From: an uncultured Lachnospiraceae bacterium
GTDB lineage: Bacteria; Bacillota; Clostridia; Lachnospirales; Lachnospiraceae
NCBI GenBank assembly: GCA_902779305.1
Contig: CACZBD010000002.1
Span: forward strand, 1-64,000
Reading direction: 5' to 3'
DNA: 64,000 bases
Positions 42,905 through 52,463 of the stretch are shown piece by piece. Within the stretch, counting starts at the first letter, position 1. The number at the start of each line of letters is the position of its first letter. The notes beneath the pieces were generated by a model. It was given only the letters and a program-made list of their open reading frames with translations. It was not told where the DNA came from and did no database searches. The translations under genes and the position numbers were made by a program.

Positions 42905-43177
42905 ATGAATTTCAAACTGCACTCTGAATACAAACCGACAGGCGATCAGCCCAAGGCGATCGAAGCACTGGTCAAGGGCTTTCAGGAAGGAAATCAGTTT
43001 CAGACCCTGCTCGGTGTGACCGGCTCCGGCAAGACCTTTACCATGGCGAATGTCATCGCGGCGCTTAACAAACCGACGCTGATCATCTCACACAACAAGA
43101 CGCTTGCCGGCCAGCTTTACGGGGAAATGAAAGAATTCTTCCCCGAAAATGCCGTGGAATTCTTCGTCTCGTATTAA
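42905..43177 (+). pseudogene. uvrB: uvrB 5' fragment, copy 1 (probably the original 5' end)
   Basis: Encodes 90 residues of UvrB including Walker A ([11 protein letters not shown]) and stops with TAA directly after FFVSY, where normal UvrB continues [11 protein letters not shown]. Codon use matches the GC-richer host genes, unlike the start of copy 3. The final 40 or so bases before the break (from ATGAAAGAATTCTTCCCCG) are identical to copy 3. Alone it cannot work: it lacks the beta-hairpin and the other helicase motifs. It marks the left boundary of the first insertion. Confidence 0.9.
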
Positions 43178-43310
43178 TTCTTTCATAGATTACCACAATA
43201 TCTGGTGGTGAAGTCTCTAATGATATTACAAGATATGGTGTCAAGGTAACGCTATACGGAATACATAGACTATATGGACAGTATACTATTGGTTACCCAA
43301 TTGTCCGCGA
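43175..43310 (+). mobile_element. Left-end block of cassette A
   Basis: After the break the sequence shares landmarks with 47076-47210 at matching distances: TCTTTCATAGAT, ATACGGAATA (43254, 80 bases from the break), TAGACTATA, and TTACCCAATTGTCC 37 bases later. It contains no gene. The conserved spacing suggests a functional element end. Confidence 0.6.
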
Positions 43311-43349
43311 CGCAATTTCTTCGGCAAAATACATGTCTTCAGCGAAAAT

Positions 43350-43418
43350 CCTCAAAACACTAAAGCGAAAAACCTCAAAATACTAAAACAAAAAACCTCA
43401 AAACACTAAAACAAAAGT
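43350..43418. repeat. Three 23-bp iterons before the ATPase gene
   Basis: Units at 43350, 43373 and 43396 follow CCTCAAAAYACTAAARCRAAA with a constant 23-bp period. They end 47 bases before the GTG of the AAA ATPase. Likely protein-binding iterons for regulation. Confidence 0.75.
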
Positions 43419-43465
43419 TGCAAAAATGCCGATAATACGCTAAGATATCCAAAGAGGTAAGCGCC

Positions 43466-44749
43466 GTGAAAGAATATAGAAAAAGAATAATCGATGATTT
43501 GCTTGAATTAAATATGGAGGCATTTGGAGCCACCTGGATAAGGGGGCCAAAAGGTTGCGGAAAAACGACAACTGCAAAGCAAAAAGCCAGGTCTGTTGTT
43601 GAATTTCAGGACGAGGAAAAGAGAGATAATCTTTTGAAGATAGCAAATACTGCGCCCTCCAAATTGCTGATCGGAGACAAGCCAATCCTGTTTGATGAAT
43701 GGCAGGATGCACCGAAACTCTTCGGCGCGATCAGGAAGGATGTAGATGATACCGGAGAAAAAGGATGCTATATACTGACGGGATCATCTTCAAAAGAGGT
43801 TAAGACGCCCCATACGGGAACGCTTAGGATCAGTCGCTTGAAAATGTATCCGATGAGTCTTTATGAGAGCGGAGATTCAAACGGTTCAATTTCTTTGATC
43901 CAGCTGTTTGATGATCCGGATTCATTCGACGGCTGCCATTCTGATATGAGTATAGATGACATTATTTTTTCAATCTGTCGCGGAGGTTGGCCGGGTGCTC
44001 TTGACGCTAAGACAGAAAGAGCAAAACTTTTAGTTGCGAAAGATATATACAAGCAAACATATTCGACGGATATTTCGAATATCGACAATGTAAAACGTAA
44101 TTCGCAGATAACCATGGATATACTGAAATCATACAGTAGGAATCTGTGTACTTTTGCGGCCACAAAAACAATCCTGTCAGATGTTAAAGCGAATAATACG
44201 GTTTCAGACCCGACCTTGTATGACTATATAAATGCGCTTACCGAATTGTATATTATCGACGATATAGACGCATGGTGTCCTTCTATACGTTCAAAGACGG
44301 TCATAAGATCCGGTAAGAAACGAAACTTCATAGATCCGTCCATTGCCGTCGCAGCACTGGGGTTGTCTCCGGATTACTTTAATAAAGATTTTAAAACACT
44401 CGGCTTCCTGTTTGAATCATTGTGCATTCGTGACCTGAAAGTGTATTCGTCTGTATACGATGGATATATGTCTTACTATCATGACAGATATGGTCTTGAA
44501 GCAGATGGCGTACTTCACCTTAATGATGGCAGATACGCTTTAATAGAGTTTAAGCTTGGACAAACAGAGGTTGATGAGGGAGCGAAGCATTTGTGTGAGA
44601 TAGAGAAGCTTGTTGCTATGCACAATGAAAACGAACCGCAATGTCCATTAAGATTGCCGAATCTGAAATTGGTGATTACCGGTACAGAGTATGGTTACAA
44701 AAGAGATGATGGTGTTTTTGTTATTCCTATCGGATGCTTGAAGAATTAG
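43466..44749 (+). CDS. AAA_14/DUF4143 ATPase
   Basis: 427 residues from GTG 43466 (AGAGGT upstream). Walker A GPKGCGKTTTAKQ (about 28-40), Walker B-like ILFDEWQDAPKL (about 76-87), then TGSSSKE sensor-type motif. The C-terminal half (about 290-427) is DUF4143-like with a PD-(D/E)XK-like pattern: LEADGVLHLNDGRYALIEFKLG. These P-loop proteins are common in anaerobic gut bacteria; function unknown, possibly regulatory or defensive. First gene of cargo A. AT-rich compared with uvrB. Confidence 0.82.
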   Translation: MKEYRKRIIDDLLELNMEAFGATWIRGPKGCGKTTTAKQKARSVVEFQDEEKRDNLLKIANTAPSKLLIGDKPILFDEWQDAPKLFGAIRKDVDDTGEKGCYILTGSSSKEVKTPHTGTLRISRLKMYPMSLYESGDSNGSISLIQLFDDPDSFDGCHSDMSIDDIIFSICRGGWPGALDAKTERAKLLVAKDIYKQTYSTDISNIDNVKRNSQITMDILKSYSRNLCTFAATKTILSDVKANNTVSDPTLYDYINALTELYIIDDIDAWCPSIRSKTVIRSGKKRNFIDPSIAVAALGLSPDYFNKDFKTLGFLFESLCIRDLKVYSSVYDGYMSYYHDRYGLEADGVLHLNDGRYALIEFKLGQTEVDEGAKHLCEIEKLVAMHNENEPQCPLRLPNLKLVITGTEYGYKRDDGVFVIPIGCLKN

Positions 44750-44792
44750 AAAATATAGGGATTGATGCATCAGTTAGTGGGAAGGAAAAAAT

Positions 44793-45137
44793 ATGCCTAA
44801 ATATACAGATGATGAAATACGAAATATGAAGAAGATTACATGTAAGATTGCAGGTGAGTATTTAGGAATATCTTCGATGGCTGTGAGCATTGGGATGAGA
44901 AACAATCTTCTCCCTATTGGATTTGCAATTCATAATGAAGAAAACGATAGACCATATTCAGAAAGTTGGTCATATCAGATTATTGCAGAGCGACTAATAG
45001 CATACAAGTATGGGAGAATCTCGGAAGTGCAGGTTCAAAACATTGAAAAGAATCTGTCAACGATTATAGAGCAGTTTGAGGAAATGAAAAAAGACCTGGT
45101 TTTTCTATTAAGCGAAAACGGGGATCAGCAGAAATAG
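44793..45137 (+). CDS. Small HTH-like protein of cargo A
   Basis: 114 residues. The N-terminus (KITCKIAGEYLGISSMAVSIGMRNNLLPIGF) is arranged like a MerR/excisionase-type winged HTH; the C-terminus is a helical segment with LSTIIEQFEEMKKDL. GGAAGG precedes ATG 44793. An excisionase or DNA-binding partner for the cassette is possible but not shown. A short frame in the gap to 45214 (ELFDYAFSLGKYSNP..., ending near 45235) may be a relic. Confidence 0.6.
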   Translation: MPKYTDDEIRNMKKITCKIAGEYLGISSMAVSIGMRNNLLPIGFAIHNEENDRPYSESWSYQIIAERLIAYKYGRISEVQVQNIEKNLSTIIEQFEEMKKDLVFLLSENGDQQK

Positions 45138-45213
45138 AATTGTTTGATTACGCGTTTTCGCTTGGCAAGTATTCGAATCCACTAAAGAGATATGAAGGGA
45201 AAGAATTACCGGA

Positions 45214-46539
45214 ATGGAGAGTAAAAAAGGAATAGTAAAGCTGTCAAGAAAACAACTCTATAACGATATTTGGGAAATGTCTGTTGCAGGAGTTGCTCGA
45301 AAGTATAATCTGAATTATGCCAAGTTGATTGAGACGTGTAGGGTATCCGATATACCTTTTCCTTCTTCGGGCTACTGGACGAGACGGAATTGTGGAAAAG
45401 ATGTTTCTTCGGAGATAATACTGCTCAGTGGGGCTGAAGATGAAATAGTAGAACTACTCACCAATGATTCTGTGGTCAAGAGACTAAGAAAAAACAATAT
45501 TGCTAATGATATGCCTATTGAACAGGGGAATGAAGACAAATCCCCCAATATGATAGATACCTATGATGATAGTGTTATACAATCGCAGGTTTTGAGTTTT
45601 CTTAGTAATGAGGAAAGGATAAAAGTCCTTGCTGTGGCGTATAATCTGAAGATAGAGGGCAATAACAGACTTCATAAGGCATTGACACAATACAAGAAAA
45701 AGATTGCCGATTATAACGAACAGCTAAAAAAGGCGCAGAGTCAGAGATACTATAACCAACGATATAATAAGCAGGCGAATGAACCGAGTTTCTTTAGCGA
45801 GGTTTCGGATGAAGGGACAAAGAGATTTATGGGCATATTGGATGCTCTGTATAAGGCGATCGAGAAACTGGGCGGAACAGTAAATGAGGATCTGTCAATA
45901 AAACTCAATGATGATGTTGTCAGGCTCAGAGTAGCTGAATCAAAAGACAAAATCAAACATGAATTGACAAAGCAAGAAGCTCAGGAACTTCTAAAGTATC
46001 AGGATGAACTAAAAAGGCATTCATGGGCTTCGAAACCGCAAATCAGACAATATGATCACGTGTTCAATGGAAGATTGCGTATTGTATTTGGCGAAAAAAG
46101 TTATATTCGAGATTCCGAGAAAGAAAAACTTGAGGATCGTTTAGGGGATATTCTCATCACTATATATGAAAAAGCCGAAGAGAACAGAATAATACGCGAA
46201 AGACATGAAGAAGAGCAGCGTAGACGCGAAGCGGAGGCTCGAAGACAGGAAGAGATTCGTAAACGAAAAGAAGAGCAGATTAGATTAACAATGGAACTTG
46301 CCAACAAGGCGGAAGATTACAGAATTGCTTCAGAAATCAGAACTTATATAACTGCGATGATTGAAAAGGGTGATGAATCGGTAACGCAGCAATGGATTAA
46401 ATGGGCAAAAGAAAAGGCGGATTGGTATGATCCGACGATAGCGCGGGAAGATGAGTGTTTGGGGAAAAGAGATCACGGGAAGAACAGGGATGAGAAGGAT
46501 CTGGATAAAAAACAGGTAAACAGGAGCTGGTACTGGTAG
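45214..46539 (+). CDS. Cargo A coiled-coil protein with GYW-type N-terminal domain
   Basis: 441 residues. The N-terminus (LSRKQLYNDIWEMSVAGVARKYNLN...CRVSDIPFPSSGYWTR) resembles a widespread uncharacterised N-terminal module of mobile-element proteins, with LYxxVW, LAxxYG and IPxPxxGYW. It is followed by a helical region, and a strong coiled coil rich in Arg/Glu (about 325-365). The module looks like an HTH for DNA recognition. No catalytic motif. Ribosome site is weak, so start at 45214 is tentative. Confidence 0.65.
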   Translation: MESKKGIVKLSRKQLYNDIWEMSVAGVARKYNLNYAKLIETCRVSDIPFPSSGYWTRRNCGKDVSSEIILLSGAEDEIVELLTNDSVVKRLRKNNIANDMPIEQGNEDKSPNMIDTYDDSVIQSQVLSFLSNEERIKVLAVAYNLKIEGNNRLHKALTQYKKKIADYNEQLKKAQSQRYYNQRYNKQANEPSFFSEVSDEGTKRFMGILDALYKAIEKLGGTVNEDLSIKLNDDVVRLRVAESKDKIKHELTKQEAQELLKYQDELKRHSWASKPQIRQYDHVFNGRLRIVFGEKSYIRDSEKEKLEDRLGDILITIYEKAEENRIIRERHEEEQRRREAEARRQEEIRKRKEEQIRLTMELANKAEDYRIASEIRTYITAMIEKGDESVTQQWIKWAKEKADWYDPTIAREDECLGKRDHGKNRDEKDLDKKQVNRSWYW

Positions 46540-46747
46540 GCAAATAGTTTTATACCGATCGGAGTATATATGCGCACAATAATACATGATCTGAATTCTT
46601 TACGGGAAATAGTATGGTGATATATAATTCGTACAGTTTGGAATGTGTGTTCAAAGAATAAATAGTGAGAATTGCAATTAGGCGATTGTGAAACCGATAG
46701 TCGGCCGCTGCGAACAAACGTTCTATAATCTGTGGACAGACACATCA

Positions 46748-46781
46748 AAGAATGGTACACTACTTGTAGTTTACCATTCTT
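46748..46781. repeat. Inverted repeat before uvrB copy 2
   Basis: AAGAATGGTACACTAC / GTAGTTTACCATTCTT, 16-bp arms with one mismatch and loop TT, followed by GATTTTTG. It could terminate the cargo A transcript or act as a recombination or binding site. The rest of 46540-46747 holds a TCGTACAGTTT motif (46629-46639) also found before copy 3, and a possible TATAAT (46734-46739). Confidence 0.65.
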
Positions 46782-46805
46782 GATTTTTGAAGGATTTTGG
46801 CAAAA

Positions 46806-47111
46806 ATGAACTTCGAACTACACTCGGATTACAAGCCTACAGGCGATCAGCCGCAGGCCATAAAAGAATTAGTGGAGGGTTTCAAAGCGGGCAACCAGTT
46901 TGAAACCCTGCTTGGTGTTACGGGATCGGGCAAAACCTTTACTATGGCGAATGTTATAGCGGCACTGAATAAACCTACCCTGATCATCAGCCATAACAAG
47001 ACTCTCGCCGGACAGCTCTACTCGGAGATGAAAGAATTCTTCCCGAACAATGCCGTGGAGTATTTTGTGTCCTACTCTCTCACAGATGGACAGCTACAAC
47101 ATGTTGCGTGA
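46806..47111 (+). pseudogene. uvrB: uvrB 5' fragment, copy 2
   Basis: ATG 46806 (GAAGGA upstream) begins 90 residues of UvrB ending FVSY, then 11 unrelated residues ([11 protein letters not shown]) to a stop. The break falls after the same Tyr codon as in copy 1. The DNA differs from both other copies at many synonymous positions, so it came from a different organism. It is interpreted as the replacement 5' end brought in by cassette A, later cut off by insertion of cassette B. Confidence 0.88.
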
Positions 47112-47210
47112 AAAAGGGTTAGATATGACGATATATTGTATGTAGTTGTACCGATACGGAATATACGGACTATAAAAACTATAAGAACTTGTGACCCGAT
47201 TGTGCACGAA
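47076..47210 (+). mobile_element. Left-end block of cassette B
   Basis: Landmarks collinear with 43175-43310: TCTCTCACAGAT directly after the break, ATACGGAATA at 47154 (79 bases), TACGGACTATA (47164-47174), and GTGACCCGATTGTGCA 37 bases later (47191). No gene inside except the short read-through tail of uvrB copy 2. Confidence 0.6.
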
Positions 47211-47237
47211 GCAAATGTGTGAGGCTGGGGGATGCGT

Positions 47238-48173
47238 ATGAAAAAGGAAAATGAAATAGTTCTATTTAATGATGGGAATAAAAATATTGAAGTACAGGTA
47301 AGTCCTGATCAGGAAACAGTCTGGTTGACCCAGAAACAGATGGAAGAGCTGTTTGAAGTCAAGCAGGCTACTATCAGCGAACATATATCTAATATACTTG
47401 AATCCGGGGAGCTTGATGAGACTTCTATCGGTTTTTCCGATAAAAGTTCCGGAGGGCGAAAACCAAAGATATATAATCTGGATATGATCTTGTCCGTGGG
47501 CTACAGAGTCAATTCAAAACGTGGTATCGCATTCAGGAGATGGGCAAATAGTGTTTTGAAGGAGTACTCACTAAATGGCTATGCCATAAACGAAAAGCGT
47601 CTTCTGGCATTGCAGAAGACTGTCGAAATCCAGACAAAGATGTTAGCCAATACGATGGATATTGAGCAGGATGAAGTACTCAAGGCTGTGAATCTGTATA
47701 CTCAGGCATTGCAGCTTCTTGACCAGTATGACCATCAGGCATTGGCTAAACCTGAGGGAAATCAACCGACTTACAGGATAACCTATGATGACTGCAGAAA
47801 AATGGTTTCTCATATGGAAGACAGTTTTAAGTCGGACGTGTTTGGTGTTGAGAAAGAACCAGGTAAAGTCGAGGGAATACTGGCTGCTGTTTACCAGGAT
47901 GTGTTTGGGGGAGAAGTATACCCGTCCCTTGAGGAGAAGGCGGCAAACCTGTTGTATTTTATGATAAAAGATCATCCTTTTGCTGATGGATGCAAGCGGA
48001 TTGCAGCATCCCTGTTCCTGGAGTTTCTGAACAGAAACAATGCCCTTTTTAGGAATGGACAAAAAGTTATCAGCGATGGAGCGCTTGTGGCAATTACACT
48101 TATGATAGCGGAATCCGATCCGAAGGAAAAAGACATTATGACTATGATGGTTATGAATCTGTTGACTGTGTAA
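47238..48173 (+). CDS. RhuM-Fic/Doc family protein
   Basis: About 311 residues from ATG 47238 (GGGGG seven bases upstream). N-terminal RhuM domain (VWLTQKQMEELFEVKQATIS, SVGYRVNSKRGIAFRRWAN) and C-terminal Fic/Doc domain. The Fic motif reads HPFADGCKR, so the usual Asn of HPFx(D/E)(G/A)N(G/K)R is Cys; the catalytic His is kept. Fic proteins transfer AMP or phosphate to targets, and RhuM-Fic genes are common in defence and toxin-like islands. Whether the Cys allows activity is unclear. Confidence 0.83.
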   Translation: MKKENEIVLFNDGNKNIEVQVSPDQETVWLTQKQMEELFEVKQATISEHISNILESGELDETSIGFSDKSSGGRKPKIYNLDMILSVGYRVNSKRGIAFRRWANSVLKEYSLNGYAINEKRLLALQKTVEIQTKMLANTMDIEQDEVLKAVNLYTQALQLLDQYDHQALAKPEGNQPTYRITYDDCRKMVSHMEDSFKSDVFGVEKEPGKVEGILAAVYQDVFGGEVYPSLEEKAANLLYFMIKDHPFADGCKRIAASLFLEFLNRNNALFRNGQKVISDGALVAITLMIAESDPKEKDIMTMMVMNLLTV

Positions 48174-48223
48174 TTCGTATATGGATTGATAGAAAGAGAT
48201 AATCTACAAGGAGGAGCAGACGA

Positions 48224-48646
48224 ATGCTGATACAAGACATAAAAGGACAACGAATAGAATGGAAAAGAAAAGGTTGGTCAATTCCAGAATTCAGAGGGAG
48301 CAAACAATACTGGTATGCTATCCTGCAAGAATTGATGGGAAAAATAAACAAAAATGGGGCCGTGGACATAAATGCTAGTCTGGAATTAGAGTCTACAGAA
48401 GGCACATATTCATGGAGAACATATGCTCCCTTTTTGAAGGGGATAGGATTGGTTGAGAGTAAATCCGGAATGCTTGTTTTAACAAAACAGGGACAGCATT
48501 TTTGTGAAACACCAAACAAGAGATTTATAGCTAATCTGATTCATGATAGATATCGCATTTTTGGAGAAGTTCTATATCTAATTCGGAAAGAACCTAATAC
48601 TATAGAAAAGATAGATGAGATATTATGCAAGAGAATATATACTTGA
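48224..48646 (+). CDS. N-terminal part of frameshifted restriction enzyme
   Basis: 140 residues; AAGGAGGA precedes ATG 48224. It resembles a winged-helix DNA-binding region (GTYSWRTYAPFLKGIGLVESKSG). It ends at 48646, while the next frame opens at 48615 and continues the same kind of sequence, so the two are probably one gene split by a single-base shift near 48615-48645. Confidence 0.6.
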   Translation: MLIQDIKGQRIEWKRKGWSIPEFRGSKQYWYAILQELMGKINKNGAVDINASLELESTEGTYSWRTYAPFLKGIGLVESKSGMLVLTKQGQHFCETPNKRFIANLIHDRYRIFGEVLYLIRKEPNTIEKIDEILCKRIYT

Positions 48647-50273
48647 TTGGGCAAATTTAAGTAATACACGACGGAGAATGGATTGGCTAGAAGTTTTGGG
48701 GTTAATAGAGGCATTAGGCAATCGTAAATGGGGAGTGTCTGATGAAGGAAAAAGAGCTTTAGAAGATTGGCCAATTGTTTCACCCGAGGTTGTGGAGAAT
48801 TATGATGAAGATGGTCAAGAAGTGCAAATACTCCCCGCTCCAACAGAGATTGGTGTGTTATTGAGAAATCTGGTTGATAATCCGTCGCTTCATAAAAAAA
48901 GAAACACATATAATATATGGATTCCTAGCCCGAATCGAATAGAGAATTTGAGAACAATTGTTCAATATGCGTCAGAAAAAGTCTCAAAGAACGAACTTTT
49001 TAGTTATATTGAAAAAGAGTTTCAATTGAAAAAGGGCAGTATTGAATCTATGATGCCGTTCTTAAGAGCTGACGGACTGATTGCAGAAGTTGGTAAAAGC
49101 GTTTATGAGGCAACTTCTGCCGCAAGGGCATGGTGTGATTCGGGCAACGATTTGGACTTGATTAGAATAATTCATTCAAATAGAAGGTTTGTGGGCGAAA
49201 TGATTCTTGCTGCAAGAGAAGATATAACAAGAAATGAGATATACGCTGAAGGATTAAAATATGGAGTAAATAATGAAAAATGTAGATGGATAATGGGTTT
49301 GCTAATTGAAGCTGGAGTTTTGGAAGAAACGCAATATCTACATGTTAAAGCCACAAGGCTTGGAAACATGTTTGTTTCTGAATTACCTATGATGCCGAGT
49401 GAGTACTTGGAATCAAATTCTTGTGAGCAAGATAAAGAAAATGAGAACCCAGTAGAAAACAGAATTGATGATTACAAGACAGATCTGTTCAATGCATTAA
49501 GTGTATCAGCAAAAGACCCGATGGCGGAAGGGAAAGCCTCTGGCGCAGCATTTGAAGAGAATATTGCTTCTATTTTTCAATTGATGGGATTTGATGCAAC
49601 TCATATTGGCGGAGCAGGGAATACAGATGTTGTTGTAAAGTGGAGAGACATGAGTGGTAAAACAGTTACTGCTATTGTTGATGGGAAATCAAAATCAAGT
49701 GGAACAGTAACACATACGGATGTGAGCGATGTAGCAATTGAAACTCATAAGGATAAAAACAGCGCTGAGTATGTTGCTATAATTGGACCAGGGTTTAGCG
49801 GGGATACAATTAAGAATTTTGCTCGTAAAAAGGGCTTTGCACTTGTAACAGAAAGAGAGTTGATTGATATAGCTGTAAATTCCCAAGAATTAGGATTAAC
49901 GCTAGAGGAAATTGCTTTACTGTTTAAAGTACCAAATGGTCTTGCTTCCCTTGAAGAGTGTATTAATTCCAAAAAGAGACAGTTAGAAATAGTCTCTTTA
50001 GTTGTAAGGACATTCAAGCAAGAACAAGAGGCTATGGATAGTTTGTCAGCGAGAGATTTGTATTTCTTGTTAAGAGGAACGAATGTATCTCCATCACTTG
50101 AGGAACTCCTCAATGCATTCGAATTATTGGCTACTGAAGAAGTGGGGGTTTTGAATTTGGTTAAAAAGGGAACACCAGAAGAAAACACAACTTATGCTTT
50201 AAAAAATGGAGTACAGAGTGTTAATCGATTAAGAGCACTGGCAACTTCTATTGAAACAGGATTAGTTGAGTAA
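48615..50273 (+). CDS. Mrr-like restriction endonuclease, C-terminal part
   Basis: 552 residues, with no good ribosome site at 48615, supporting the frameshift reading. Helical HTH-type repeats fill residues 1-270. Residues about 310-420 are an Mrr_cat-type PD-(D/E)XK nuclease: GAAFEENIASIFQLMGF, GGAGNTDVVVKW and IVDGKSKSSG, where the usual ExK appears as DGK. The tail is helical. Likely a type IV or unusual type II enzyme, without a methylase nearby. With the RhuM-Fic gene it forms cargo B. Confidence 0.72.
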   Translation: MRYYAREYILDWANLSNTRRRMDWLEVLGLIEALGNRKWGVSDEGKRALEDWPIVSPEVVENYDEDGQEVQILPAPTEIGVLLRNLVDNPSLHKKRNTYNIWIPSPNRIENLRTIVQYASEKVSKNELFSYIEKEFQLKKGSIESMMPFLRADGLIAEVGKSVYEATSAARAWCDSGNDLDLIRIIHSNRRFVGEMILAAREDITRNEIYAEGLKYGVNNEKCRWIMGLLIEAGVLEETQYLHVKATRLGNMFVSELPMMPSEYLESNSCEQDKENENPVENRIDDYKTDLFNALSVSAKDPMAEGKASGAAFEENIASIFQLMGFDATHIGGAGNTDVVVKWRDMSGKTVTAIVDGKSKSSGTVTHTDVSDVAIETHKDKNSAEYVAIIGPGFSGDTIKNFARKKGFALVTERELIDIAVNSQELGLTLEEIALLFKVPNGLASLEECINSKKRQLEIVSLVVRTFKQEQEAMDSLSARDLYFLLRGTNVSPSLEELLNAFELLATEEVGVLNLVKKGTPEENTTYALKNGVQSVNRLRALATSIETGLVE

Positions 50274-50343
50274 AGGAAAAAGGATCAGACAGTTTCCTCA
50301 CAGGGGTTTTTCTGTATTATGAAATTGCGAGTTGATCATTCTG

Positions 50344-50391
50344 TATAGTCCGTACAGTTTTAATATGATGTTTTTTGTGACCCAATTGTGC
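50344..50391 (+). mobile_element. Right-end block of cassette B
   Basis: TATAGTCCGTA (50344-50354) is the exact reverse complement of TACGGACTATA in the left end (47164-47174). GTGACCCAATTGTGCA (50377-50392) repeats the left-end 16-mer in direct orientation with one change. AATTGTGCA here also pairs with TGCACAATT at 50418-50426. Confidence 0.6.
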
Positions 50392-50428
50392 ATTTACCGT
50401 TTTTTGAGCATGTACCCGTGCACAATTC

Positions 50429-50459
50429 TTGCCTTATAGACAACTTTTTTTACTATAAC
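50429..50459 (+). promoter_or_regulatory. Possible promoter for intact uvrB
   Basis: TTGCCT (50429-50434) with TACTAT (50451-50456, 16-bp spacer) or TATAAC (50454-50459, 19-bp spacer). It lies in sequence interpreted as element-borne, so the cassette may supply uvrB with a promoter as well as a 5' end. Confidence 0.4.
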
Positions 50460-50480
50460 TTTTAGGGAGCTTTTGCATAT

Positions 50481-52463
50481 ATGGAGTTCAAATTACATTC
50501 GGAATATCAACCTACCGGCGACCAGCCGCATGCCATAAAAGAACTTGTCGAAGGTTTCAAACAGGGTAACCAGTTTGAAACCTTACTTGGCGTTACGGGT
50601 TCCGGAAAGACCTTCACCATGGCAAACGTGATAGCTGCTCTGAACAAGCCGACTCTGATCATCAGCCACAACAAAACCCTCGCCGGCCAATTGTATTCTG
50701 AGATGAAAGAATTCTTCCCCGAAAATGCCGTGGAATTCTTCGTGTCCTACTATGACTATTACCAGCCGGAAGCCTATGTGCCCTCAACGGATACCTATAT
50801 CGAAAAGGATTCGTCGGTCAATGATGAGATCGATAAACTGAGACTGTCCGCAACGGCCTCTCTTTCGGAACGCCGTGATGTGATCGTGGTCGCATCCGTT
50901 TCCTGTATCTACGGCCTTGGCAGCCCGCAGGATTACCTGAACATGATCGTGTCGTTAAGACCGGGCATGACAAAGGACCGGGACGAGGTGATCCACGAAC
51001 TCATCAACATCAATTACGAGCGGAACCAGATGGATTTCGGGCGCGGGAAATTCCGCGTTTTGGGAGATGTGATCGAACTGTTCCCGGCATGGGATTCGGA
51101 TAGGGCGGTCCGGATCGAATTCTTCGGGGATGAGATCGACAGGATCACGGAGATCGATGCGCTGACCGGGGAAAAGAAAGCGCTGCTGAATCATTTTGCG
51201 GTCTTTCCCGCATCCCACTATGTGATCCCGCCGGATAAGATCAACCACGCCTGCGAGACGATCGAGGCGGAGCTTGAGGAGAGGATCCGGTATTTTAAAA
51301 GCGAGGATAAACTCTTAGAAGCGCAGCGGATCTCGGAGCGCACGCATTTTGATATCGAAATGCTCAAAGAAACGGGATTCTGTTCCGGCATCGAGAACTA
51401 TTCGAGACATATGTACGGGCTCGAGCCCGGCGCGACGCCGTATACGCTGATGAACTATTTTCCCGATGATTATCTGATCATCATCGACGAGTCGCATATG
51501 ACGATCCCGCAGATCAGAGGGATGTATAACGGCGACCAGGCAAGAAAGACGACACTCGTCGATTACGGCTTCCGTCTGCCGTCTGCCAAGGACAACCGTC
51601 CCTTGAACTTTAGCGAGTTTGAGAGTAAAATAGACCAGATGATGTTTGTGTCCGCAACGCCCGCGGAATACGAGGCGGAGCACGAACTTTTGCGCGTGGA
51701 ACAGGTCATCCGTCCGACCGGTCTTCTGGATCCGGAAGTGTCCGTCAGACCCACGGAAGGCCAGATCGACGACTTGATCTCAGAGGTCCGCAAAGAAACG
51801 GAGCAGCACAACAAGGTGCTGATCACGACGCTGACCAAGCGGATGGCGGAGGATCTGACCTCCTACATGAAGGAAGTCGGCATCCGGGTCAAATACCTGC
51901 ATTCCGATATCGACACTTTGGAACGCGCGCAGATCATCAGAGAGCTGCGGCTGGATGTGTTCGATGTTCTTGTCGGGATCAACCTGTTAAGGGAAGGTCT
52001 TGATATTCCGGAGATCTCGCTCGTGGCAATTTTGGATGCGGATAAGGAAGGGTTCCTACGTTCCGAAACGTCGCTCGTGCAGACGATCGGGCGCGCCGCA
52101 AGAAATGTGAACGGCCGCGTGATCATGTACGCCGATACGATGACGGATTCGATGAAAAACGCGATCTCGGAAACGAACCGCCGCCGCAAGATCCAGCAGG
52201 CATACAACGAAGAACACGGCATCACACCGAAATCGGTGCAGAAAGCGGTCAGAGATCTGATCAGCATCTCCAAGGAGATCGCCAAAGAGGAGATGCGCAT
52301 CGAAAAAGATCCGGAATCCATGGACCGCAAGGAACTCGAGAAACTGATCGCGCAGATCAAAAAGAAAATGCAGCAGGCCGCGACGGATCTGGACTTCGAA
52401 ACGGCTGCGGAACTGCGGGACAAGATGCTGATGCTCAGAAAACAGTTGGAGGATATGAAGTGA
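50481..52463 (+). CDS. uvrB: Excinuclease ABC subunit B
   Basis: 660 residues, full length. Walker [12 protein letters not shown] (about 38-48), the beta-hairpin region [20 protein letters not shown] starting at Y90/Y91, [12 protein letters not shown], helicase motifs V/VI ([22 protein letters not shown]), and a C-terminal UVR motif ([13 protein letters not shown]). UvrB receives damage from UvrA and holds DNA for UvrC incision in nucleotide excision repair. The first 220 bases differ in codon style from the rest, so the gene appears to be a chimaera of an imported 5' end and host 3' part. GTGA overlap with the next gene. Confidence 0.97.

Follow-up and report, generated by a model that had tools for sequence, protein, structure and literature searches.

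The 64,000-nucleotide window analysed here (positions 1 to 64,000 of contig CACZBD010000002.1, forward strand, assembly GCA_902779305.1), from an uncultured Lachnospiraceae bacterium, contains three 5′ ends of the repair gene uvrB, designated W1, W2 and W3. They are separated by two groups of cargo genes, with cassette 1 lying between W1 and W2 and cassette 2 between W2 and W3. A first-pass annotation, made from the sequence alone, had reported the uvrB 5′ end in triplicate, with all of the genes between the fragments pointing the same way. Both observations hold: codons 1–90 begin at 42905, 46806 and 50481, and the cargo genes all lie on the plus strand. The uvrB features of the locus are the following.

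42905..43177, plus strand: W1, uvrB codons 1–90, with TAA directly after the break; an attL-like upstream junction
46806..47111, plus strand: W2, UvrB-like up to 47075, after which 11 foreign codons lead to a stop
50481-52463, plus strand: W3, the intact uvrB, 660 amino acids
50481..50750, plus strand: replacement codons 1–90 of W3, in frame with the host 3′ part and probably element-borne
50744..52463, plus strand: host 3′ part of uvrB, with the crossover probably at or just before about codon 88–90
43127..43167, plus strand: 41-bp run identical to 50703-50743, just before divergence; candidate direct repeat of the outermost attachment (att) sites

When W3 was searched as DNA against the whole assembly (3.25 Mb in 32 contigs), it matched the first 271 bases of W2 (80%, E = 1.8e-66) and the first 272 bases of W1 (76%, E = 2.6e-49), values that rule out chance similarity among the three copies. 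No further uvrB copy was found in this search, which returned only one other match, of 34 bases inside W3 itself. Identity among W1, W2 and W3 is 0.73–0.81 over codons 3–68 and 0.28–0.31, approximately the level of chance, past codon 91. As the first-pass annotation had noted, the bases just before the break agree between the first and third copies, and they do so at 41 of 41 positions. Its statement that both fragments end at the residues FVSY is correct for W1 but not for W2, which continues into its foreign codons. The host-like codon style that it ascribed to W1 and to the 3′ part of the intact gene has weak support. The G+C content at third codon positions is 0.68 in W1 and 0.71 in the 3′ part of W3, compared with 0.58–0.59 in W2 and the 5′ part of W3, but four neighbouring genes exhibit values of 0.59–0.66.

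The same arrangement recurs in relatives. A search of 145 genomes (that of the window included) with the 90-residue query gave matches in 137, namely the window's own genome, 83 others of the same family and 53 of the order's other families. Among the 83 same-family genomes, 15 have an additional uvrB 5′ piece, compared with 0 of the 53 from elsewhere in the order (Fisher P = 4.4e-4), and in 12 of the 15 carriers the piece runs to about codon 90 and ends there. The front part of the piece is broken in two of these 12 (G058 and G077), with that of G077 departing from UvrB at codon 91. The carriers include two single-contig genomes, G071 and Hungatella hathewayi DSM 13479 (G082), and an extra uvrB copy was found in none of the 22 genomes of a control, element-free family. 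Across 23 distinct partial copies, the first residue that departs from UvrB lies at codon 90 in eight, codon 91 in six and codon 92 in nine. This count leaves out junctions with runs of N and, W1 excepted, copies that the script classed as odd, short pieces among them; some of the 23 are mutually close kin, and 19 left ends are retained after removing near-identical and short ones. In 17 copy pairs, identity falls from 0.70–0.92 before the junction to 0.19–0.33 after it, a drop at codon 91 no less sharp than the one in the window. The stranded 5′ pieces of G055, G064, G082 and G058 contain stops or frameshifts.

Irregular uvrB 5′ regions were also seen. In loci L017 (G031) and L100, runs of N that mark scaffold gaps lie at the codon-88/90 junction, perhaps reflecting a mixture of occupied and empty sites in the population. 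In G042 (C55:2060-2402), uvrB is read in two overlapping frames (codons 1–59 and 74–130), indicating a frameshift or an assembly error near the 5′ end.

In four relatives (G061, G067, G082 and G088), two tyrosine recombinase genes, TR1 (393–397 amino acids) and TR2 (427–442 amino acids), lie directly upstream of intact uvrB. These tandem recombinases beside a replacement uvrB 5′ end supply the cassette model of the first-pass annotation with machinery. The two genes overlap in all four pairs; TR1 and TR2 are 25–30% identical to one another, and within-type identity is 41–63% for each. Both proteins of G082 and of G061 match the Pfam family Phage_integrase, and the Arg, His-x-x-Arg, His and Tyr positions, which we take to be the catalytic residues, are invariant in the four aligned TR1 and the four aligned TR2 sequences. 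A small HTH_17-like gene, scoring below the Pfam cut-off, precedes the pair in G082 and G088, and in G049 the recombinases are broken or decayed. TR1 and TR2 of G082 and TR2 of G017 score far below the NCBIfam cut-offs for integron integrases, the IntI enzymes that act at attI on gene cassettes with an attC-type site.

A TR2 profile built from the four sequences matched 24 of 397 family genomes at E ≤ 1e-70. A collection of named genomes yielded at least 415 TR2 relatives, the best 80 of which were kept as loci. At 65 of the kept loci, the start of uvrB, or of a 5′ piece of the gene, is less than 600 bp from TR2 (223–484 bp, median 322), and at six, with less than 700 bp of flank, uvrB is missing. 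Among the 65 near copies, 54 are full-length and 53 of those are open past codon 640, the other (L094) having a stop at about codon 123. The remaining 11 comprise two that run off the contig and nine classed as partial: six stumps (L091, L109, L115, L117, L127 and L160), two copies interrupted by gaps (L100 and L112) and one cut by a contig end (L120). Judged by this gene context, the TR1/TR2 pair is a dedicated uvrB-targeting family. Within the genus of the window, TR2 and a partial TR1, which reaches a contig end, adjoin uvrB in G017; a TR2 orthologue was not found in the window's own genome, in which the best match is 27–28% identical. The pair stands next to uvrB in the named isolates Hungatella hathewayi DSM 13479, [Clostridium] citroniae WAL-17108 and Extibacter muris DSM 28560, which makes the mechanism directly testable.

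Matches outside these bacterial genomes were also profiled. A match was found in 188 plasmid records, in all cases below 80% identity, and a scan of viral contigs found no relative with the 90-residue query and only two 24% matches with the TR2 query. A phage origin was considered and rejected. The three best-matching 'Bacteriophage sp.' records (MT835502.1, MT839619.1 and MT839146.1) are unverified scaffolds from human faeces carrying an ordinary uvrB of host type, which is truncated by the contig end in MT839146.1 and intact in the other two; they are therefore probably host DNA.

Except for the right end of cassette 1, the ends of the two window cassettes contain short repeated words of the kind that would serve a tyrosine recombinase as arm sites; a LexA-type box lies upstream of W2.

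43292..43307, plus strand: left arm-type site of cassette 1, GTTACCCAATTGTCCG, 117 bp past codon 91
46712..46723, plus strand: LexA-type box GAACAAACGTTC, exact, with TATAAT directly after it, upstream of W2
47164..47174, plus strand: TACGGACTATA at the left end of cassette 2, with its reverse complement at the right end (50344-50354)
47191..47207, plus strand: left arm-type site of cassette 2, GTGACCCGATTGTGCAC, 115 bp past codon 91
50377..50427, plus strand: right arm-type module of cassette 2, upstream of W3, with GTGACCCAATTGTGCA (50377-50392) and inverted TGCACAATT (50419-50427)

In most copy pairs, the shared core before the break is TA[T/C]TTTGT, after which come a variable third base and TCCTA; W1 and W3 read TTCTTCGT. 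Several copies read GGAG-TATTTTGT-CTCC at this position, an arrangement compatible with a tyrosine recombinase core whose spacer is 8 bp long. The left arm motif GT[GAT]A[AC]...ATT[CG][GT] is present in 16 of the 19 distinct left ends, starting 105–118 bp past codon 91, compared with a chance expectation of 0.84 at 95–150 bp; both window cassettes are among the 16. The same kind of arm word, often with an inverted copy, is found between TR2 and uvrB. The word ATTGTCCG is common to the left arm of cassette 1, the right end of the recombinase-bearing G017 and the left ends of G015 and G077, and the right end of G017 resembles that of cassette 2 upstream of W3. The arms of cassette 2 match at both of its ends, with ATTGTGCA at 47191-47207 and 50377-50392, and inverted at 50419-50427. 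Under the assumption that ends on different contigs belong to one element, an element-specific match between left and right arms was found in 8 of 16 presumed elements (G061, G055, G067, G064, the second G082 element, L127/L153, L160/L166 and window cassette 2). A shorter arm part is shared by the two ends of the first L160 cassette. The longest word shared by the two ends of one element averages 10.3, versus 8.5 for unrelated ends; this difference is small, and matching arms must therefore be told case by case.

The leader that precedes element-borne uvrB was first considered as a regulatory RNA and this candidate was dropped. No Rfam family match to the leader was found in six loci, and the recurrence of its GTGACC..ATTCGT word at left ends makes arm-type DNA sites the more economical interpretation. 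At L088, L089, L093, L096, L163 and other loci, the leader, approximately 20–130 bp upstream of uvrB, can form a hairpin of about 20 bp with a T run after it, just before the ribosome-binding site; this structure may be terminator-like or simply consist of inverted arm sites. At L157 (7568-7665), a match to the pemK RNA (RF02913) exceeds the gathering score.

A promoter region also accompanies the replacement 5′ end. Among 41 distinct right ends (39 taken from TR2 loci, together with G017 and W3), the sequence GAAC-N4-GTTC, presumably the box bound by LexA in this bacterial group, occurs between TR2 and uvrB exactly in 28 and with at most one mismatch in 37, whereas mononucleotide shuffles give expectations of 0.12 and 3.6, respectively. 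Element-borne promoters mostly carry a LexA-type box further upstream. When nine native fragments were tested within 250 bp, G067 exhibited an exact box, G061 a box with one mismatch and seven none, and no loss of SOS control is therefore claimed.

The two parts of uvrB were compared separately, and their histories differ within the genus. Among 28 sequences (from 37 genomes, that of the window included; the rest had no complete enough copy or no match), nucleotide distances over codons 1–88 correlate with those over codons 100–580 at r = 0.21, whereas 100 overlapping 88-codon control windows gave 0.56–0.75. With 25-codon windows, r is below 0.28 for windows ending by codon 97 and 0.54–0.60 for those starting at codons 89 and 97, a step at about codon 90. 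In the element-free family (21 sequences), codons 1–88 gave r = 0.87, above all controls (0.58–0.85). In a set of 64 sequences (63 from TR2 loci and that of the window), the value for codons 1–88 was 0.48 versus 0.57–0.75 for controls. The incongruence between 5′ and 3′ parts, with its step at about codon 90, suggests that the elements have reshaped uvrB across the genus of the window, including in genomes in which no element is visible.

The elements in relatives differ widely in size. Stump and intact gene lie approximately 3.1 kb apart in both G071 and G064; in G049 the distance is 25 kb, and in G061 it reaches approximately 128 kb. Tandem stacks are present as well: at L109 the order is TR2, stump, 3-kb cassette and intact gene, L127 and L153 share one contig, as do L160 and L166, and G082 has two stumps. 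A coupling protein of a type IV secretion system is encoded inside the G061 element (C33:170929-172146), and another is found approximately 18 kb beyond the G082 stump, with a ParB gene nearby. No Relaxase-family match was found inside the G061 interval; one lies 33 kb beyond the G082 stump on the other strand. From this gene content, conjugation of the large relatives would be likely. In Hungatella hathewayi (G082:C1; L041/L042), the stump side is at approximately 5.45 Mb on the minus strand and the side with the recombinases and intact uvrB at 1.457 Mb on the plus strand. These positions, approximately 4 Mb apart on opposite strands, suggest a large rearrangement through the element.

Neighbouring genes bear on which 5′ end is native. 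In G061 the order is ftsX, ctpA, uvrB stump, 128 kb and intact uvrB. Of 19 single-copy family genomes, 7 carry ctpA no more than 6 kb upstream of uvrB, and 5 have ftsX there as well. At the stump loci, ctpA precedes the uvrB piece in 2 of the 10 examined. It stands before none of the 81 copies in recombinase loci, but there most of the upstream stretch is occupied by the element itself. The presence of ftsX and ctpA before the G061 stump therefore indicates that the stump is in the old place and that the intact uvrB of G061 has the newcomer's front. In the window, the genes upstream of uvrB differ from those of its nearest relatives; W1 is presumed to be the native 5′ end, which fits the cassette model.

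We conclude that the two cassettes of the window, which lack a recombinase, very probably belong to a family of site-specific integrative elements with an attachment site inside uvrB, at about codon 88–90. In the proposed mechanism, the recombinase pair would swap strands at a short core (approximately TA[T/C]TTTGT, codons 86–88) between a circular element and uvrB. Besides the arm sites, the circle would bear a promoter region, in most cases containing a LexA-type box, and a uvrB codon 1–90 segment of its own before the core. On insertion, the original codons 1–90 would be left upstream, ending in an early stop, while the promoter and 90 codons of the newcomer would be joined in frame to the old 3′ part, such that UvrB would still be made. 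A second insertion at the new junction would generate the array W1–cassette 1–W2–cassette 2–W3, in which W2 would have arrived with cassette 1. The first-pass annotation had proposed cassette entry at one fixed position in uvrB, bringing a new 5′ end and promoter, and the break at codons 90–92 and the recombinase pair in relatives indicate that it was right in outline. Its suggestion of two insertions in series agrees with the array of two cassettes and with the stacks at L109, L127 with L153 and L160 with L166. As the window cassettes have no recombinase genes and the assembly no orthologue, they would be either remnants, known as cis-mobilizable elements (CIMEs), or substrates of a pair acting in trans.

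Several observations weigh against this model. The extra pieces in 3 of the 15 carriers (G002, G034 and G036) are shorter and decayed, ending at codons 34–51; that of G002 retains a left-end match beside it. The right end of cassette 1 has no recognisable arm sites, and left and right arms do not match in 7 of the 16 presumed elements (window cassette 1, G049, G071, G035, G088, the first G082 cassette and the L109 cassette). The LexA-type box is missing upstream of W3 (three mismatches) and in G017. In 7 of the 80 kept loci, uvrB is 1.0–4.5 kb from TR2, and at L105 and L149, TR2 has 10 kb of flank and no uvrB; these two may lie inside rearranged elements or at another target. Only G017 among 37 same-genus genomes has the recombinase (E ≤ 1e-40). 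Low r values were obtained in short windows elsewhere in uvrB (0.19–0.34 at codons 353–393 and 0.30 at codons 481–505), isolated values from which it follows that single short windows are noisy. With protein distances, the same 64 sequences gave 0.470 versus 0.474–0.706, which is not clear, and single-copy family members taken one per genus together with the window (21 sequences) gave 0.393 versus 0.358–0.685, which is not distinctive. Distance rank correlations of the three window 5′ ends are 0.27, 0.06 and 0.10, none significant, and do not settle which end is native. Finally, the movement of the elements (excision, circle formation and transfer) is deduced from sequence.

The cargo of the window comprises six genes.

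43466..44749, plus strand: cassette 1, AAA_14/DUF4143 ATPase, PADLOC candidate PDC-S01
44793..45137, plus strand: cassette 1, 114-residue protein without a Pfam family
45214..46539, plus strand: cassette 1, 441-residue protein without a Pfam, NCBIfam or PADLOC family
47232..48173, plus strand: cassette 2, RhuM/Fic protein, PADLOC candidate PDC-S23
48224..48646, plus strand: cassette 2, 140-residue protein without a Pfam family
48615..50273, plus strand: cassette 2, 552-residue protein with an Mrr_cat restriction endonuclease domain

None of the six proteins matched a recombinase or transfer family (Pfam, PADLOC), and a tblastn search for recombinase remnants, using five queries each of TR2 and TR1 type (one TR1 query being partial) plus two small helix-turn-helix queries, found none in either cassette, in agreement with the first-pass annotation, which had seen no recombinase there. 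RhuM proteins (PDC-S05/S23) are encoded in window cassette 2, in G071, in G082 and beside the G055 stump. A DUF1016/YhcG nuclease (PDC-S02) is found in the L109 and G082 cassettes, DUF4143 (PDC-S01) in window cassette 1 and IrrE-type genes (PDC-M69) in G064, and a P-loop ATPase (PDC-M28C) is common to G071 and L109. Recombinase-less cassettes often carry PADLOC candidate defence families, a statement of occurrence that claims no enrichment over background. Visual inspection of the cassette past the stump of L053 (G058) suggested a PIN-type gene pair and, next to a small gene, a Y-family polymerase-like gene; the PIN-like protein gave no PADLOC match.

The recombinase-less cassettes may be immobile decay products (CIMEs) of recombinase-bearing elements. 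This reading, which we mildly favour, is a branch of the integrative-element model, and its probability is not to be added to that of the model. Recombinase remnants were detected in 2 of 10 cassette stretches (3 of the 10 are cut by contig ends): the final 40–64 residues of TR2 remain in the G064 cassette (lowest E 1.4e-10), and two TR2 pieces in the first L160 cassette. These remnants rule out the notion that short cassettes never keep recombinase traces, and decay therefore explains some short cassettes. The lack of right arm sites in cassette 1, the stops and frameshifts in the stranded pieces of G055, G064, G082 and G058 and the broken G049 recombinases point in the same direction. By contrast, the other eight stretches, both window cassettes included, have no convincing remnant (we attribute matches at E = 0.36–0.96 to chance), the arms of cassette 2 still match at its two ends, and several short cassettes consist of a few defence-type genes. 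The two cassettes of the window could be either decay remnants or moved cassettes.

Ordinary homologous recombination, an improbable source of the array, would let in linear DNA that bears cargo and a foreign uvrB 5′ end through the uvrB homology and would need no dedicated recombinase. It would be consistent with window cassettes that hold no recombinase or remnant in a genome without a TR2 orthologue, with the 41 identical junction bases of W1 and W3, with the armless right end of cassette 1 and with the wide exchange of 5′ ends in the genus. However, such an exchange would end anywhere in the gene and give no 90-codon stump, whereas the break is limited to codons 90–92 in 23 copies, the recombinase pair lies by uvrB in 65 of 80 loci and arm-type sites stand at a near-constant distance. 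Random degraded duplications of uvrB or an assembly artefact, the two outcomes that the first-pass annotation had named as fatal to its model, have a negligible chance of being correct even though most of the genomes are multi-contig, 3 of the 15 extra pieces are short and the junctions of L017 and L100 contain gaps, because the fixed end points (codons 90–92) and the control family (0 of 22) reject random duplication, the window copies at 73–81% identity are too different for assembly collapse, and the extra pieces also occur in the single-contig genomes G071 and G082.

The integrative-element model explains duplicate uvrB stumps, easily mistaken for plain pseudogenes, in a large gut-type bacterial family, and provides an exact, searchable address at which mobile elements and candidate defence genes accumulate. 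uvrB, a core repair gene, would stay intact because each invader brings a replacement front part, mostly with an SOS-type box. More tentatively, uvrB might be a family-wide, integron-like docking gene at which the recombinase pair moves large elements and, in trans, short defence cassettes such as cassette 2. If so, each visit would swap the SOS-type promoter and the N-terminal 90 codons of UvrB, the nucleotide-binding motif included, and repeated insertion and excision would shuffle UvrB 5′ ends between species.

Integration in uvrB was not described in the titles and abstract openings found in a search limited to the PMC open literature. As in an integrative and conjugative element (ICE), G061, G067, G082 and G088 have their own integrase at one end, with TR1 and TR2 beside intact uvrB. 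As in a CIME, with its related att sites, the window cassettes share the codon-90 junction and the left arm motif with recombinase-bearing elements; cassette 2 also has a right arm site and cassette 1 does not. ICEs of the SXT/R391 group supply their target gene, prfC, with a new 5′ end and promoter. Their integration at the 5′ end of a housekeeping gene, as given in the available text of PMC4542580, resembles that proposed here, but the target is uvrB, the host group and recombinase set differ, and 90 codons and usually a LexA-type box are carried. The 'Tyr duo' integrative and mobilizable elements (IMEs) MTnPi1-3 of Prevotella, as covered in the available text of PMC5704250, likewise have two distantly related tandem tyrosine recombinases (TR1 and TR2 are 25–30% identical), but their target specificity is low, whereas here insertion is at one point in uvrB. 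RIT and Tn554-type elements also hold several tyrosine recombinases together (available text of PMC3414803), RIT having three recombinase genes in a row; here there are two, with a single target gene. A further parallel is with accretion arrays of CIMEs, ICEs and IMEs of the ICESt1 type (available text of PMC5704250, a review whose main text does not contain the word uvrB), which have att junctions, tandem stacking, recombinase-less members and a target gene kept whole. The uvrB array differs in its target, in an insertion point approximately 90 codons deep, in the replacement of approximately 270 bp together with a promoter region and in its use of a recombinase pair instead of a single integrase. 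The family is best described as tyrosine-recombinase-pair integrative elements with accretion at about codon 90 of uvrB, carrying a 90-codon replacement and promoter region.

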